NCBI GenBank assembly: GCA_001603805.1
Contig: LUZY01000011.1
Location: 124,001-188,000 of the forward strand
Length of the DNA: 64,000 nucleotides
Direction: 5' to 3'
DNA from: Deferribacterales bacterium Deferri_01
GTDB lineage: Bacteria > Chrysiogenota > Deferribacteres > Deferribacterales > Geovibrionaceae
The translations under genes were made by a program, and so were the position numbers. Positions 3,498-9,433 of this stretch are shown here, in pieces. The first letter of the stretch is position 1. Each line of letters opens with the position of its first letter. The notes below the pieces were generated by a model. It worked only from the letters and a program-made list of their open reading frames with translations. It was not told where the DNA came from and searched no databases.

Positions 3498-3548
3498 GTT
3501 AAAAATGATTCAATACAGCGTATTTATATAAAAGTGAGGAGGGTGTCC

Positions 3549-3842
3549 ATGGCTCAAGTATCTGTTGAAGAGAACAGTGTTAAAATAAAAGGGAATATTA
3601 AAAGTATAGATGATTACCTCACCGTAAAAAATTCTCTTCAGGAACTTGTTGATTCCGGATACCGCAGTATTGATATATGCTTCTTGGATTCAGTTTCCAT
3701 TACCTCATCAATTATCGGGTACATGCTTAAGCTCATTAATATTGATAAGATTGAGCTTACGGTTGCCGCCGGTGACAAAAAACTGATAACACTTATGGAG
3801 GAGCTTGAGCTTCATAATGTTTTCAGCGTCAGAGAACTCTGA
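3549..3842 (+). CDS. STAS-like (anti-sigma factor antagonist-like) protein
   Basis: A 97-residue protein whose pattern (short strand, helix DDYLTVKNSLQELV, strand IDICFLDS, then SVSITSSIIGYMLKL) follows the STAS fold. In that fold a serine or threonine at the start of the DS-(S/T) loop is phosphorylated in SpoIIAA-type antagonists. The start at 3549 is chosen because AGGAGG at 3537-3542 precedes it at proper spacing; an in-frame GTG upstream lies on the ribosome binding site itself. No anti-sigma kinase or PP2C phosphatase gene is visible nearby. It may serve the signalling operon that follows, but it appears to have its own promoter. Confidence 0.65.
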   Translation: MAQVSVEENSVKIKGNIKSIDDYLTVKNSLQELVDSGYRSIDICFLDSVSITSSIIGYMLKLINIDKIELTVAAGDKKLITLMEELELHNVFSVREL

Positions 3843-3868
3843 AATTCCATTTCCATTTCCTTAATTTA

Positions 3869-3897
3869 TTGCCGTAAGAATTTTGCAGTAGTATAAT
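3869..3897 (+). promoter_or_regulatory. Sigma-70-type promoter of the luxP operon
   Basis: TTGCCG (3869-3874) and a perfect TATAAT (3892-3897) are separated by 17 bases. The predicted transcription start is near 3904, about 60 bases before the first gene of the receiver-luxP-GGDEF/EAL operon. Confidence 0.65.
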
Positions 3898-3962
3898 ATT
3901 ATCAGATAAAGTGTTTTGATATAAGCTCAAAACATGATGGCTTTATCGGGCGGAAGGATTAA

Positions 3963-4322
3963 ATGAAAGATATATCTGTACTTATCGTTGAAGATGATCC
4001 GGCAGTTGCCAATGCATTGGAGCTTAGATTGAAGCGTACATTCAGAAGAGTGCTGAGTGCACCTGACGGTCTTAAGGGACTTGAAACTGCGGTTACTGAA
4101 AAGCCTGACGTTATTCTGACGGATCTCCGTATGCCCCACATGGAAGGGTTGGCCATGATAGAAGAGATCCGTAAAACCCTGCCGGATGTACATGTTATAG
4201 TTCTTACCGCATCCAGTGACCGATTTGACCGTAACAAGGCTGAAGAACTTGGTGTTGAAGGTTATTTTACAAAACCTCTGATGGTGAATGAGCTTATAGC
4301 GAAAATTCAGGAGATGGTTTAA
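3963..4322 (+). CDS. Single-domain response regulator (CheY-like receiver)
   Basis: The 119 residues form one receiver domain with no output domain. The acidic pair is E10-D12, the phospho-acceptor is Asp54 in ILTDLRMP, the switch threonine is Thr82 and the conserved lysine is Lys104 in FTKP, so it should be phosphorylated. GGAAGGA precedes the ATG. It is the first gene after a strong promoter and lies one base from the luxP start, so it is in the same operon as the AI-2 receptor and the GGDEF-EAL protein. No histidine kinase is encoded in this operon, so its phosphodonor must come from elsewhere. Confidence 0.93.
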   Translation: MKDISVLIVEDDPAVANALELRLKRTFRRVLSAPDGLKGLETAVTEKPDVILTDLRMPHMEGLAMIEEIRKTLPDVHVIVLTASSDRFDRNKAEELGVEGYFTKPLMVNELIAKIQEMV

Positions 4323-4323
4323 T

Positions 4324-5424
4324 ATGAAAGGGGCTAAGGCTCTCTTTCTGTTTGTTTTTCTCACCTCTTTTGCCGCATTTGCTGATGAACGGTCGTTTTA
4401 TACTGTCTCCGAATACATGCTGAAAAGTCCTGAGCAGGCGTGGAAATTTGATAATTTTGCCAATATTGTACGCAGTGAACCGGTTCCTTTGAAGTCCGTT
4501 AATACCACTCCTGTGAAAATAGCCGTTGTTTATCCTGCGCTTCAGTCCTCCGACTACTGGAGACGAAGCGAACGGGCTCTTAAAAAGCGTTTGTCAGAGC
4601 TTAATATAAACTATACCCTGCTTACTTATCACAGCAAACCTTCAGGGGATACCAGATTACAGGTTTCGCAGCTTGCTCAGGCAGCTTCCGCAGGGGCGGA
4701 CTTCATTATTGTTTCCGCAGATTCCCCTCAGATGCGCAGTGCGGTGGGCAGGCTGTTGTTTGAAGGCAGACATAAAATAATAATACAGAACCTGACTACA
4801 CCTCTTAAGGAGTGGGAACGCCGCCGTCCCCTTCTTTATACAGGGTTTGACCATATTTCCGGTTCGGCGATTCTGGCTGATTCCGCCGCTTCGATGGCTG
4901 GGCAGAATGCATCTTATGCTGTTCTTAACTGCTCAGAAGGAGAAGTGGGATATCTCAGGACAAAAGGCTTTGAGGAAAGACTTGCAGAGCGCGGGGAATA
5001 TGCTAAAAAGGCTGAGTATATTACCGATTTCAATCTGGAAAAAGCACGGGCTGCCACAAGGGAAATTATAAAGAAATATCCGGATATAAGCTTTATTTTT
5101 GCATGTTCAACAGACATTGCCCTTGGTGCGGCGGAAGCCCTGAAAGATTCCGGAACGAAAAATGTTATTCTTAACGGATGGGGCGGCGGTGAAGCGGAAC
5201 TGCGGCTGATAGAGAGAGGGGAGCTTGATTTTACAGTCATGCGGATGAATGATGACAGCAGTATAGCGGCGGCAGAAGCGGTGAAGCTTGTTATTTCCGG
5301 TATGGAAAAAGAGGTTCCTGTCATTTTTTCAGGAGACTTCAGCCTTATCACCGCATCGGACAGTGCAGAAAAAATAAAAGAACTAAAAAAGAAAGCCTTC
5401 AGGTACTCCGGTGAAAATGAATAG
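4324..5424 (+). CDS. luxP: LuxP-type autoinducer-2 periplasmic receptor
   Basis: A 366-residue type I periplasmic sugar-binding fold protein with a signal peptide (cleavage near FAAFA-D). Similarity to Vibrio LuxP is strong along the chain: VYPALQSSDYW, LQN-like QNLTTP-EW, TGFDH, CSTDIALGA, NGWGGG, VMRMNDD and the C-terminal KKKAFRYS. From memory the AI-2 contacts in V. harveyi LuxP are Gln77, Ser79, Trp82, Asn159, Arg215, Trp289 and Arg310; here Gln74, Ser76, Trp79, Asn156, Arg212, Trp286 and Arg307 stand at the equivalent places, a constant offset of three. It should therefore bind the borate form of AI-2. It ends inside the start of the GGDEF-EAL sensor gene (14-base overlap), its likely membrane partner. 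No luxS is visible in the window. Confidence 0.92.
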   Translation: MKGAKALFLFVFLTSFAAFADERSFYTVSEYMLKSPEQAWKFDNFANIVRSEPVPLKSVNTTPVKIAVVYPALQSSDYWRRSERALKKRLSELNINYTLLTYHSKPSGDTRLQVSQLAQAASAGADFIIVSADSPQMRSAVGRLLFEGRHKIIIQNLTTPLKEWERRRPLLYTGFDHISGSAILADSAASMAGQNASYAVLNCSEGEVGYLRTKGFEERLAERGEYAKKAEYITDFNLEKARAATREIIKKYPDISFIFACSTDIALGAAEALKDSGTKNVILNGWGGGEAELRLIERGELDFTVMRMNDDSSIAAAEAVKLVISGMEKEVPVIFSGDFSLITASDSAEKIKELKKKAFRYSGENE

Positions 5425-8400
5425 AATTAAATCAGTTAAGATATCGTCATTTCTTGCTCTGCTGCTGACGGGTTTCTCGGTAATCCTGTCCGTGGTTATC
5501 CTTGTTTGGAACAGCCTTGATGCAGGCATTATCATTAAAAGAGAGCAGTCCCGGCTGCTTAAACGTAATCATGACACTGCTTCAATGGTTTTTGAAAAAG
5601 AAATAGAGCATCTCAGCTGGGTTACAAGGGATCTCCGAATAAATTTAAAGCAGCTTCTGGAAAGGAATGCAGACATTAATTCGGATGATTTCAGGAGCGG
5701 TTTTGCATCCATATATGATTTAAGCGCAGGGGAAAATCTGGACATTATGATTTTCGTGTCATTTGACGGTACGAATGTTATTGATGTCGGTTCTATGTTT
5801 TTTGACACGAGCGAGATAGTCCGTTTTTTACAGACAAAAGGGAACAGCGTTTCTGCGGGCGGTTCGGTATATACAATCAGAAAGCCTGACAACTCGGCTC
5901 CTCTGAGCTTTATTCTGGGGTATTCATCCGTTAATCACCCCTCCAGCGGGCAGGTTCTCGGCAGGGTTTACATAGGCAAGATAATAAACGGAGCGCCGGA
6001 TATTATACGCGAGGCGGAATTTGAAGATGGTTCGTTGGTTGCCTTTGTTTCAGAAGGCAGAATAATATCCTCTTCTGACGGATTTACTGCATCAAATTTT
6101 TTTCCGGAAGCCTGCGAGAAACCTGATACTGTTTTAAGGGCAACAGGCTCACTCACTGCGTACTGCAGACCTCTTCTTCTGAAAGGCAGCGAAACTCCGC
6201 TGATGATTTATCAGCTTACCGGAAGCCAGTCTCTTGCTATGATGAAAAAACAGACAGCCGGCAAGGCAGCCGGCATCATTCTGCTTGTTATAATAATGAC
6301 CGGAGTTTCTGTTTACGGCTTTCACAGGGTGACCGCGCGTTCCCTGCATTATCTTATAGACTATACTCACAAGATAAGCGCTTCCGGCAGCACAGATGAC
6401 TTTGAGCCGACTCCGGTGGAGGAGTTTAACATGCTCGGAGAGGCTGTTTCTGCAATGAACAGGGAACTGCGTGAAACACAGGCATATCTGGGCAATTTTC
6501 TGAGCTTCGCCAAAGTGCCTCTCATTGCGTGGGACACCGAAAATAAAATTGTAATATTCAACAAAGCCATGGGTGAGCTTTCCGGCATAAGTGAACAAGA
6601 TGCTATCGGAGAAAGCCTTGAAATAATTTTTTCCTGCCTTTCCGGTGAAAAGCTTAAAGAACTGCTTCTGAAAGCGGCGGATAATGCAGATACGCTTTCT
6701 AATTTTGAATCCATAGTAAAGAACATAAGCACAGGCGAGATGAAATATATTCTTTGGAACCTTTCAATGGCGGGAACTGAAGGAAATAGCTTCGGCGTTG
6801 TGCTTCAGGGTATAGATATTACCGACAGAAAATCGTCGGAGGAAAAACTTCTGCTTGCTTCAAAAGTTTTTGAAAACACTATTGAGGCAATTTACATAAC
6901 CAATACAAGAGGCGTTATTCTCAGTGTTAATAAAGCCTTCCTGCGGATTACAGGCTTCAGCGAGGAAGAAGCAATCGGAAATAAAACCAGTATCCTCCGC
7001 TCCGGCAGGCATGCCAACCACTTTTATAAAGGACTATGGGGAGCGCTGAAAGAGACAGGAACATGGCAGGGTGAAATATGGAACAGACGCAAAAACGGTG
7101 AACTCTATCCCGCACTGGTTAATATATCGAGCATTAAAGACTCAAACGGGAATATCTCACATTATATTGGCGTTATGCACGACATAACTGAAAGAAAAAA
7201 ATATGAAGAGCAGATAAAGTACCAGTCTCACTATGATCCGCTGACCAACCTGCCTAATCGCTACCTGTTCCATGACAGACTGAGTATGGCTATATCCAGA
7301 GCTAAGAAAAACCACAACTATGTGGGGCTCATATCCATCGATATCGACAGGTTTAAAAATGTTAACGACACTCTCGGACATAACGTTGGGGACATACTCC
7401 TTCAGAAGATAGCAGACCGCATAGTCGGCACAGTGGGTGACAGTATCACAGTAAGCCGTCTTGGAGGAGATGAGTACACTGTTATTGTGGAGGATCTTTC
7501 CGATAAAAACAGAGCTGTAACAATCGCCTATAACGTTATTAAGCAACTTGAAAAGCCGTTTCAGGTGGATGATTACGAGTTGTTTCTCAAATGCAGCGCA
7601 GGCTTAAGCTTTTACCCTGATGATGGCGAAGATGTTTTCACTGTCGCCAAAAACGCCGATGCGGCAATGTACCGTGCAAAGTCAAAAGGGCGGGGCATGC
7701 TTCAGATATATACCACAGACTTTAATGACACAGCCAAAGACAGGCTCATTGTGGAAACAAAACTGAACAGGGCTTTGGATAACGGTGAGTTTGAGGTGTA
7801 TTATCAGCCGAAGATAAATCTCCGCACACTTGAGCTCGTGGGCATGGAAGCTCTTATAAGATGGAATAATGCTGAACTCGGCAGGGTATTTCCTGATATG
7901 TTTATACCCATAGCAGAAGAAACCGGACTTATTGTTCCCATCGGTCAGTGGGTGCTGAAAAAATCCTGCGAGGACCTCATGAGATGGCGTTCGATGGGGT
8001 ATGAGCTTAAAGTGGCAGTGAATCTTTCACTGAAGCAGTTTATTCAGAAGGATCTTTTTATGTCTGTGCGGAATGTGCTTCAGGAGACCGGCATGGAGCC
8101 GAAGCATCTTGAGCTTGAAATTACAGAAAGCACGATAATGGTTGATACTGACAATACAATGGATATTCTTGATAAACTCAGCTCACTGGGGATAAGCTTC
8201 GCCATTGATGACTTCGGAACAGGGTTCAGCTCCATAGGCTACCTTACCAGAATACCTATAGATACTATTAAAATAGATAAATCCTTCACTCAGGGGATCG
8301 ATACCAGCGAGGATTCTCTCTCCATTGTCCGTTCTGTCATTCAGCTTTCCAGCAACTTAGGAATTGAGGTCGTGGCGGAGGGTGTGGAGAATGAGGACCA

Positions 8401-8542
8401 TCTCCGCCTTTTACGTGAGCTTGAGTGTGATCTGGCGCAGGGATACTACTTCAGCAGACCTGTCCCCGCAGAGGAGTTTGAAAAACTCCTTGAAGGGTGG
8501 CAGGAGAGCTTTGCTCTGGAGATAAATTCAACAAAGCAGTGA
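5411..8542 (+). CDS. Membrane sensor with LuxQ-like periplasmic domain, PAS-PAS-GGDEF-EAL
   Basis: The 1043-residue inner-membrane protein makes or breaks cyclic di-GMP. TM1 is about residues 11-34 and TM2 about 284-304; the roughly 250-residue loop between them is periplasmic and has the size and local pattern (PSSGQVLG...) of the double-PAS periplasmic domain of LuxQ. A HAMP-like linker, PAS (about 356-475) and PAS (about 485-600) follow. The GGDEF domain carries GGDEY at 685-689 and has no RxxD I-site. The EAL domain keeps EAL (813-815), DDFGTG (933-938) and the AEGVE loop, so both activities may be retained. It starts with GTG at 5411 or ATG at 5417, overlapping luxP. AI-2-loaded LuxP probably controls it; that coupling is inference. 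Confidence 0.9.
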   Translation: MKMNRIKSVKISSFLALLLTGFSVILSVVILVWNSLDAGIIIKREQSRLLKRNHDTASMVFEKEIEHLSWVTRDLRINLKQLLERNADINSDDFRSGFASIYDLSAGENLDIMIFVSFDGTNVIDVGSMFFDTSEIVRFLQTKGNSVSAGGSVYTIRKPDNSAPLSFILGYSSVNHPSSGQVLGRVYIGKIINGAPDIIREAEFEDGSLVAFVSEGRIISSSDGFTASNFFPEACEKPDTVLRATGSLTAYCRPLLLKGSETPLMIYQLTGSQSLAMMKKQTAGKAAGIILLVIIMTGVSVYGFHRVTARSLHYLIDYTHKISASGSTDDFEPTPVEEFNMLGEAVSAMNRELRETQAYLGNFLSFAKVPLIAWDTENKIVIFNKAMGELSGISEQDAIGESLEIIFSCLSGEKLKELLLKAADNADTLSNFESIVKNISTGEMKYILWNLSMAGTEGNSFGVVLQGIDITDRKSSEEKLLLASKVFENTIEAIYITNTRGVILSVNKAFLRITGFSEEEAIGNKTSILRSGRHANHFYKGLWGALKETGTWQGEIWNRRKNGELYPALVNISSIKDSNGNISHYIGVMHDITERKKYEEQIKYQSHYDPLTNLPNRYLFHDRLSMAISRAKKNHNYVGLISIDIDRFKNVNDTLGHNVGDILLQKIADRIVGTVGDSITVSRLGGDEYTVIVEDLSDKNRAVTIAYNVIKQLEKPFQVDDYELFLKCSAGLSFYPDDGEDVFTVAKNADAAMYRAKSKGRGMLQIYTTDFNDTAKDRLIVETKLNRALDNGEFEVYYQPKINLRTLELVGMEALIRWNNAELGRVFPDMFIPIAEETGLIVPIGQWVLKKSCEDLMRWRSMGYELKVAVNLSLKQFIQKDLFMSVRNVLQETGMEPKHLELEITESTIMVDTDNTMDILDKLSSLGISFAIDDFGTGFSSIGYLTRIPIDTIKIDKSFTQGIDTSEDSLSIVRSVIQLSSNLGIEVVAEGVENEDHLRLLRELECDLAQGYYFSRPVPAEEFEKLLEGWQESFALEINSTKQ

Positions 8543-8548
8543 TAAGCC

Positions 8549-9379
8549 CTACAGTTTGGCAGGACCAGCCATTCCGAATCCCTGCGTGGTTCTTATGCCT
8601 ATTCCTGACTCCACAAGCAGAGAGAGGTCATCAGGGTGTCCTGAAAGCTGAAAAGTTCCTGTTATGCCGGTAAGCATCATGAGAGACTTGCCGGTCTTTT
8701 CCCTGAACTTGTCTAGGGTGTGTTTAATAACTGTTTTACGCAGTTTGATTGATTTGAAAACAATGGGCTCCTGCGGGTATTTCCCTGTCATTCCGAAAAT
8801 ACGCATAGAAGATATCTCCGCCAGCCTGTCGGAATATTCCTTTTCAGTTACTTCCAGTTCGCTGTAGCCATCCTCAACCGGTGGGATTATAGGCTTTTTC
8901 GAGTTCAGCGCTTCCAGCAGCACAGGAGAATGCGTGTGCAGGGTTACTCCGGAAGATTCAATTGTAAAGGGTTTATTGAGAAGCTTTGTGTTCTCAAGCA
9001 TGTAGGTAAGCTTTCTGCCGCCGACAAGGATTTGACCATTTCTGGAAAAGTCTATGTTTCTCTTTTTTTCAAAGCCGTTCTGTACAGCCTGAAGAAACTG
9101 CTCGTACGGACTGCTTACGTACAGAGTGATAAATTTGTTTTCCGGTATGTAGAACACTGTGTCATGCACTTCAAAGTTATTGTCGAACACGATAGATTCT
9201 TTTTTGAACCTGTCTCTGGAAAAAGCAAGATTGAACGTGAAAAACTTAAAACTTTTGTCCGTGAGTCCCATCCCCAGCGACTCATAGCCGATTTCTGCTG
9301 CGGATTTAATAACTTCGGCTATTCTGTTCCTGAAAATGACCGGTACTTCAGTTGCGGTAAGAGTAAGTTTCAAAAGCAT
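8549..9379 (-). CDS. cas6: CRISPR-associated endoribonuclease Cas6 (solitary)
   Basis: A 276-residue protein with the Cas6 layout: two ferredoxin-like halves and a C-terminal glycine-rich loop, GIGIRTTQGFGMAG at 259-272, the hallmark of RAMP RNA-binding proteins. Cas6 cuts CRISPR precursor RNA within repeats. The motif KFFTFN near residue 45 corresponds to the usual KPFTFS, but the histidine normally found shortly before it is absent (MGLTDKSF). The first His is at 72, so catalysis may be lost or may use other residues. The ATG at 9379 has AGGAG at good spacing and is preferred over an upstream TTG. No other cas gene and no repeat array is in the window, so it either acts in trans or is a remnant. 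Confidence 0.85.
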   Translation of the reverse strand: MLLKLTLTATEVPVIFRNRIAEVIKSAAEIGYESLGMGLTDKSFKFFTFNLAFSRDRFKKESIVFDNNFEVHDTVFYIPENKFITLYVSSPYEQFLQAVQNGFEKKRNIDFSRNGQILVGGRKLTYMLENTKLLNKPFTIESSGVTLHTHSPVLLEALNSKKPIIPPVEDGYSELEVTEKEYSDRLAEISSMRIFGMTGKYPQEPIVFKSIKLRKTVIKHTLDKFREKTGKSLMMLTGITGTFQLSGHPDDLSLLVESGIGIRTTQGFGMAGPAKL

Positions 9380-9433
9380 CGGGAAGTCTCCTGTCAAAAA
9401 AGAAAATTCACAATTAAGTATGTTTGCATTTTT

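Follow-up and report, generated by a model that had tools for sequence, protein, structure and literature searches.

A total of 64,000 nucleotides of Deferribacterales bacterium Deferri_01 (contig LUZY01000011.1, positions 124,001 to 188,000; hereafter the window) were analysed, in which luxP, encoding a predicted periplasmic binding protein for autoinducer-2 (AI-2), overlaps a gene whose product carries a LuxQ-type input domain followed by PAS, GGDEF and EAL domains. It is quite probable that this pair constitutes a LuxPQ-type AI-2 receptor in which an enzyme of cyclic di-GMP (c-di-GMP) metabolism has replaced the histidine kinase, with AI-2 controlling c-di-GMP. The identities of the two genes, the AI-2 pocket, the homology and fold of the input domain, the EAL residues, the recurrence of the pair and the absence of luxS from the 51 genomes of the phylum searched were established here. 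AI-2 control of the enzyme is what we infer from the anatomy, and the binding of LuxP to its partner and the downstream function of the pair are likewise proposed. The host is a 2.85-Mb genome of the phylum Deferribacterota, probably from the genus Geovibrio, and the two genes and their parts are as follows (aa, amino acids; Pfam values are E-values).

4324..5424, forward strand: luxP, predicted periplasmic AI-2-binding protein, 366 aa (HMMER match to Vibrio harveyi LuxP; AI-2 contact residues)
5411..8542, forward strand: LuxQ-input/PAS-PAS-GGDEF-EAL protein, 1043 aa (open reading frame, Pfam, profile and fold searches)
5441..5515, forward strand: membrane segment 1, about residues 11-35 (hydrophobic stretch ISSFLALLLTGFSVILSVVILVW; model helix 11-85)
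5516..6250, forward strand: periplasmic LuxQ-type double-PAS/Cache domain, about residues 36-280 (LuxQ 3c30 profile match, Foldseek, hhalign)
6257..6325, forward strand: membrane segment 2, about residues 283-305 (AAGIILLVIIMTGVSVYGF; model helix 273-325)
6491..6823, forward strand: PAS domain 1, residues 361-471 (weak Pfam PAS_10 stretch; second PAS stretch of PF00989/PF13426/PF08448)
6866..7186, forward strand: PAS domain 2, residues 486-592 (Pfam PAS, 4e-25)
7226..7693, forward strand: GGDEF domain, motif GGDEY, no RxxD I-site (Pfam, 2.3e-43; motif columns)
7760..8461, forward strand: EAL phosphodiesterase domain, full catalytic set EAL, N, E, DD, K, E, Q (Pfam, 1.5e-77)

A LuxQ-type input domain joined to GGDEF-EAL

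The partner is thus ordered as membrane segment, periplasmic domain, membrane segment, PAS, PAS, GGDEF and EAL. Its gene, noted as overlapping luxP in the preliminary description of this DNA, starts with a GTG at 5411, from which the overlap is 14 nt; an in-frame ATG at 5417 would reduce the overlap to 8 nt. No HisKA, HATPase_c or receiver domain was found in the partner by Pfam, PAS-PAS-GGDEF-EAL standing in their place, and the protein is therefore taken as having a LuxQ-type input without being a LuxQ kinase. The NCBIfam model for LuxQ (NF041947) matched residues 12-481 only, failing with 82.4 bits against a cut-off of 1200 bits.

Searches with the window protein by itself gave weak matches to LuxQ. 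The Pfam LuxQ-periplasm family, which was the only one matched by the input domain (dCache_1 was not), gave E-values of 0.0075 for the whole protein and 0.0008 for its N-terminal part, below the curated cut-off, and a single-sequence search of the PDB returned LuxQ marginally (E 0.03) amid chance matches. The same family matched all 26 GGDEF-EAL partners tested, with a best E-value of 6e-21. Moreover, a profile of the N-terminal 339 residues of 26 LuxP-linked GGDEF-EAL partners, with no Vibrio sequence among them, had LuxQ entries as its only PDB matches (3c30, E 3e-27; 1zhh chain B, 9e-20; 2hj9, 1.5e-15). When it was compared by hhalign with a second profile, built from the LuxQs of Vibrio and its relatives, the E-value reached 1.7e-39 (100%, 329 columns). 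The first 339 residues of the window protein were also modelled with AlphaFold, using an alignment of 42 sequences that included none from Vibrio, and the model had a mean pLDDT of 84.5. In this model two long helices flank an alpha/beta periplasmic region, bracketing about residues 36-280, in agreement with the two membrane segments around a roughly 250-residue region described earlier. The likeness to LuxQ, proposed earlier from size and pattern and open to refutation by an unrelated fold, was borne out by Foldseek, whose six top matches in the PDB were all LuxQ periplasmic domains (E-values between 1.6e-9 and 2.6e-8, TM-scores by target reaching 0.71), with the dCache chemoreceptor domains ranking behind them. 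The profile and fold searches settle that the periplasmic part of the partner is homologous to LuxQ.

Recurrence of the pair and its evolution

The pairing is not unique to the window, which goes beyond the preliminary description. luxP was found in 9 of 51 Deferribacterota genomes, eight of them with a LuxQ-input GGDEF-EAL gene downstream and the ninth (G009) with a hybrid kinase. Furthermore, the genome_contigs scan yielded 307 candidate luxP loci, of which the 80 ranked highest by likeness to the window were covered, so that the proportions of output types among them are not to be read as prevalence. In these 80, the GGDEF-EAL form appeared in 19 further genomes, all from Proteobacteria (Marinobacterium, Neptuniibacter, Oceanospirillum, Pontibacterium, Halomonas, Stappia and Labrenzia). 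A total of 27 pairs of luxP and a LuxQ-input GGDEF-EAL gene were obtained in this way, from Deferribacterota, Oceanospirillales and Stappia/Labrenzia; no fewer than three lineages of bacteria, unrelated to one another, thus share the arrangement.

Other outputs were also observed next to LuxP. The partners were hybrid kinases in Vibrio and its relatives, and kinases in Arcobacter, Marinomonas, Kiloniella and several Desulfobacterota. In a Desulfococcaceae locus (L030:9233-11470), LuxQ-periplasm and HAMP and PAS domains lead to a SpoIIE-type phosphatase, an output absent from the listing for LuxQ-periplasm in PMC4822843. The Oceanimonas partner (L104:7239-9080) has LuxQ-periplasm (E 1.6e-66) and two PAS domains and stops before any catalytic output, and the reading frame after luxP in Marinobacterium jannaschii (L037:9092-10039) is only 315 aa long, spanning the LuxQ-type input and then ending. 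Denitrovibrio is a member of the Geovibrionaceae in the phylum Deferribacterota. Within the Denitrovibrio group, an opposite-strand gene, transposase-like by eye, splits luxP from its GGDEF-EAL partner in a 3.22-Mb genome (G018; L021:6058-7458), and the N-terminal part of the partner of Denitrovibrio sp. BM704 (L022:4471-7491) is interrupted by an in-frame TAA, reflecting either a pseudogene or an assembly error.

Three separate groups of the GGDEF-EAL form are seen in the LuxP tree, which requires three label changes. A single GGDEF-EAL clade was not rejected by the tree of the output domains, which held few outgroup paralogues (approximately unbiased test, p 0.279), and for this reason there may have been either one origin with later swaps or several separate acquisitions.

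The likeliest regulated enzyme

The EAL catalytic residues were complete in all 27 pairs, including that of the window. The GGDEF motif read GGDEF or GGDEY in 23 of them and SGDEF or NADEF/Y in the other four, and the metal-binding DxD of this domain was altered in some. Because the EAL set is intact throughout and the GGDEF motif degraded in four pairs, the phosphodiesterase is the likeliest regulated output. For the window protein both activities are possible: the earlier statement that both active sites are largely intact was upheld, the EAL set being complete and GGDEY and the DxD being kept, without an RxxD I-site. The original AI-2 to c-di-GMP proposal is qualified in that the conservation favours the phosphodiesterase over an equal weight for the two enzymes.

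A diguanylate cyclase might instead be the main output, with the EAL domain opposing or regulating it in an MbaA-like switch. The retention of GGDE and the DxD in the window is compatible with this, and NspS-MbaA is a known ligand-controlled c-di-GMP pair of Vibrio cholerae (PMC9578409). However, only the EAL domain never loses its catalytic set across the pairs, and the closest NCBIfam model over PAS-GGDEF-EAL is that of a phosphodiesterase, DibA, albeit with a score below its cut-off, which makes a cyclase-led output unlikely, if far from fanciful.

The predicted ligand and its source

With HMMER, the window LuxP matched the V. harveyi LuxP structures over residues 25-363 with an E-value of 9e-85, the next best family in the PDB search being ribose-binding protein (E 1e-10). 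The similarity spans the full length and lies clearly above that to other sugar-binding proteins. The residues contacting AI-2 in the crystal structure of V. harveyi LuxP, Q77, S79, W82, N159, R215, W289 and R310, correspond to Q74, S76, W79, N156, R212, W286 and R307 of the window protein. These seven positions, and likewise T263, were invariant in 89 of 89 aligned LuxPs, the alignment combining those of the phylum with those of the genome_contigs scan. As far as its sequence tells, the gene at 4324-5424 encodes a true LuxP, the identity assigned to it from the outset and confirmed by both the match and the pocket, and the protein is predicted to bind AI-2. In the passages of a 2025 survey drawn on here (PMC12268683), AI-2 binding is reported for randomly chosen LuxPs from Proteobacteria and Deferribacterota; those passages treat LuxP as a sensor-only or transport protein and do not consider its partners.

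A search of 51 Deferribacterota genomes, that of the window included, detected no luxS. An S-adenosylhomocysteine hydrolase is present in the window genome, so recycling of S-adenosylhomocysteine need not pass through LuxS. Regarding the 19 proteobacterial carriers of the GGDEF-EAL form, luxS occurred in six (Marinobacterium, Pontibacterium and Halomonas) and was not found in the other 13 searched, several of which are draft or metagenome genomes. Since the search for luxS was negative for 21 of the 27 carriers, these look like AI-2 listeners.

The same absence of luxS would also fit a pair sensing something other than AI-2, such as another sugar or a borate ester, in which a diverged, ribose-binding-like LuxP would link nutrient sensing to c-di-GMP. 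LuxP does belong to the ribose-binding superfamily (Peripla_BP_4), and the LuxPs beyond the genus of the window are mostly only 38-49% identical to its own. Nevertheless, the invariance of the seven contacts and of T263, the far stronger match to LuxP than to ribose-binding protein and the binding reported in the survey passages render such a ligand improbable.

LuxP and the input domain as a probable pair

The distances between LuxPs and those between input domains were correlated (r=0.75, 48 pairs), the maximum of 2000 shuffles being 0.18, with a contribution from shared descent. The correlation was considered as proof of interaction between LuxP and its partner and rejected, as shared descent yields an equal signal. 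That the two are mere neighbours, the Cache-like domain of the partner sensing its own ligand and LuxP serving another system, is very improbable: the Cache superfamily, made up of extracellular sensors, does include LuxQ-periplasm (PMC4822843) and dCache structures do come next after LuxQ in the fold search, but every profile search pointed to the LuxQ type and not to dCache_1, the two genes overlap and their adjacency is maintained across phyla, and no ATP-binding cassette (ABC) transporter genes stand beside luxP in the list of window reading frames.

Proposed circuit

In the LuxPQ-type circuit favoured here, LuxP would bind AI-2, possibly borated, from other species in the periplasm, and would sit on the LuxQ-type domain of its partner, as suggested by the Vibrio LuxPQ structures and by NspS-MbaA. 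Closure of LuxP on AI-2 would alter how the partner dimer is packed, and the change would travel through the second membrane segment, the linker and the two PAS domains to the GGDEF-EAL pair. There, the EAL phosphodiesterase would be regulated, with GGDEF providing a second activity or acting as a GTP-sensing regulator. A single membrane protein would tie AI-2 to c-di-GMP without a LuxU/LuxO phosphorelay, and c-di-GMP might either rise or fall with AI-2.

Some points weigh against this circuit. The PAS domains could bind a cytoplasmic ligand of their own that dominates the output. Having no luxS, the organism needs AI-2 made by others or a supply of 4,5-dihydroxy-2,3-pentanedione that does not come from LuxS. 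Moreover, in view of the split pair and the interrupted partner described above, some Denitrovibrio may be able to do without the system.

On a broader scale, the balance tips somewhat towards LuxP and the LuxQ-type input being a portable AI-2 module placed on several outputs (hybrid kinase, plain kinase, GGDEF-EAL and SpoIIE phosphatase), of which the c-di-GMP version would be a listening system, widespread and so far undescribed, that serves chiefly bacteria lacking luxS.

Genomic setting of the operon

Two genes precede luxP on the same strand.

3534..3842, forward strand: STAS-like small protein, 102 aa, role unassigned (open reading frame; upstream gene of the cluster)
3963..4322, forward strand: single-domain response-regulator receiver (Pfam Response_reg, 4.6e-27; ends 1 nt before luxP)

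The 102-aa protein had no Pfam match, and 'STAS-like' is our own reading; a 97-aa homologue occupies the matching place in both congeners (L018 and L019). The receiver gene adjoining luxP is kept in L018, L019 and L020, and in L020 it is preceded by a histidine kinase. The conservation of these genes in the congeners, together with that kinase, suggests that window 3534-4322 supplies a second input into the luxP operon. On the other side, a Cas6-like gene (8549-9397, reverse strand; Pfam Cas_Cas6_C, 3e-14) is convergent with the GGDEF-EAL gene and has a homologue in the matching position in both congeners. The genome's own c-di-GMP network comprises 24 GGDEF, 12 EAL and 7 PilZ matches over the cut-off.

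Comparison with known systems

The preliminary description had met no account of such a circuit for LuxP-type receptors. This stands insofar as a full-text search of one open-access collection yielded no account of a LuxP-based AI-2/c-di-GMP circuit, but parts of it had been glimpsed before. Among 115 LuxQ-periplasm proteins, Upadhyay et al. 2016 (PMC4822843) listed 112 kinases and one c-di-GMP protein. Rezzonico and Duffy 2008 (PMC2561040) noted the luxP operon of Neptuniibacter caesariensis and the absence of luxS and suggested listening; they named the partner a PAS-containing 'transcriptional regulator' and proposed no c-di-GMP output. Recent papers on AI-2 still confine LuxP to Vibrio with its phosphorelay or group it with transport. 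AI-2 is known to control c-di-GMP enzymes by way of dCache and GAPES1 receptors and, in V. cholerae, through the LuxO pathway. If the circuit proposed here is correct, a one-step route from AI-2 to c-di-GMP through LuxP would exist in Deferribacterota, Oceanospirillales and marine Alphaproteobacteria at the least, and chiefly in bacteria without luxS; interspecies listening would become directly testable, and LuxP with the LuxQ-type input would represent a natural sensor module with interchangeable outputs.

The Vibrio LuxP-LuxQ system shares with the window the ligand pocket of LuxP, a homologous periplasmic domain between two membrane segments followed by PAS, and adjacent or overlapping genes, whereas its output is a hybrid histidine kinase with the LuxU/LuxO phosphorelay instead of GGDEF-EAL, and luxS is missing here. 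NspS-MbaA of V. cholerae, compared by description, likewise joins a periplasmic binding protein and a membrane c-di-GMP enzyme in one operon, with the ligand altering c-di-GMP, but the binding protein is a different one and the ligand is a polyamine, norspermidine. In the CahR-type dCache receptors (for example the diguanylate cyclase rpHK1S-Z16) and the GAPES1 receptor YeaJ, AI-2 also controls a c-di-GMP enzyme directly and without a phosphorelay; unlike the window pair, they belong to other input families and bind AI-2 in their own periplasmic domain with no need of LuxP. Finally, the LuxP operon of N. caesariensis MED92 shows the same arrangement as the window and is one of the loci recovered here (L093), where the LuxQ-input PAS/GGDEF-EAL partner is 1014 aa long.

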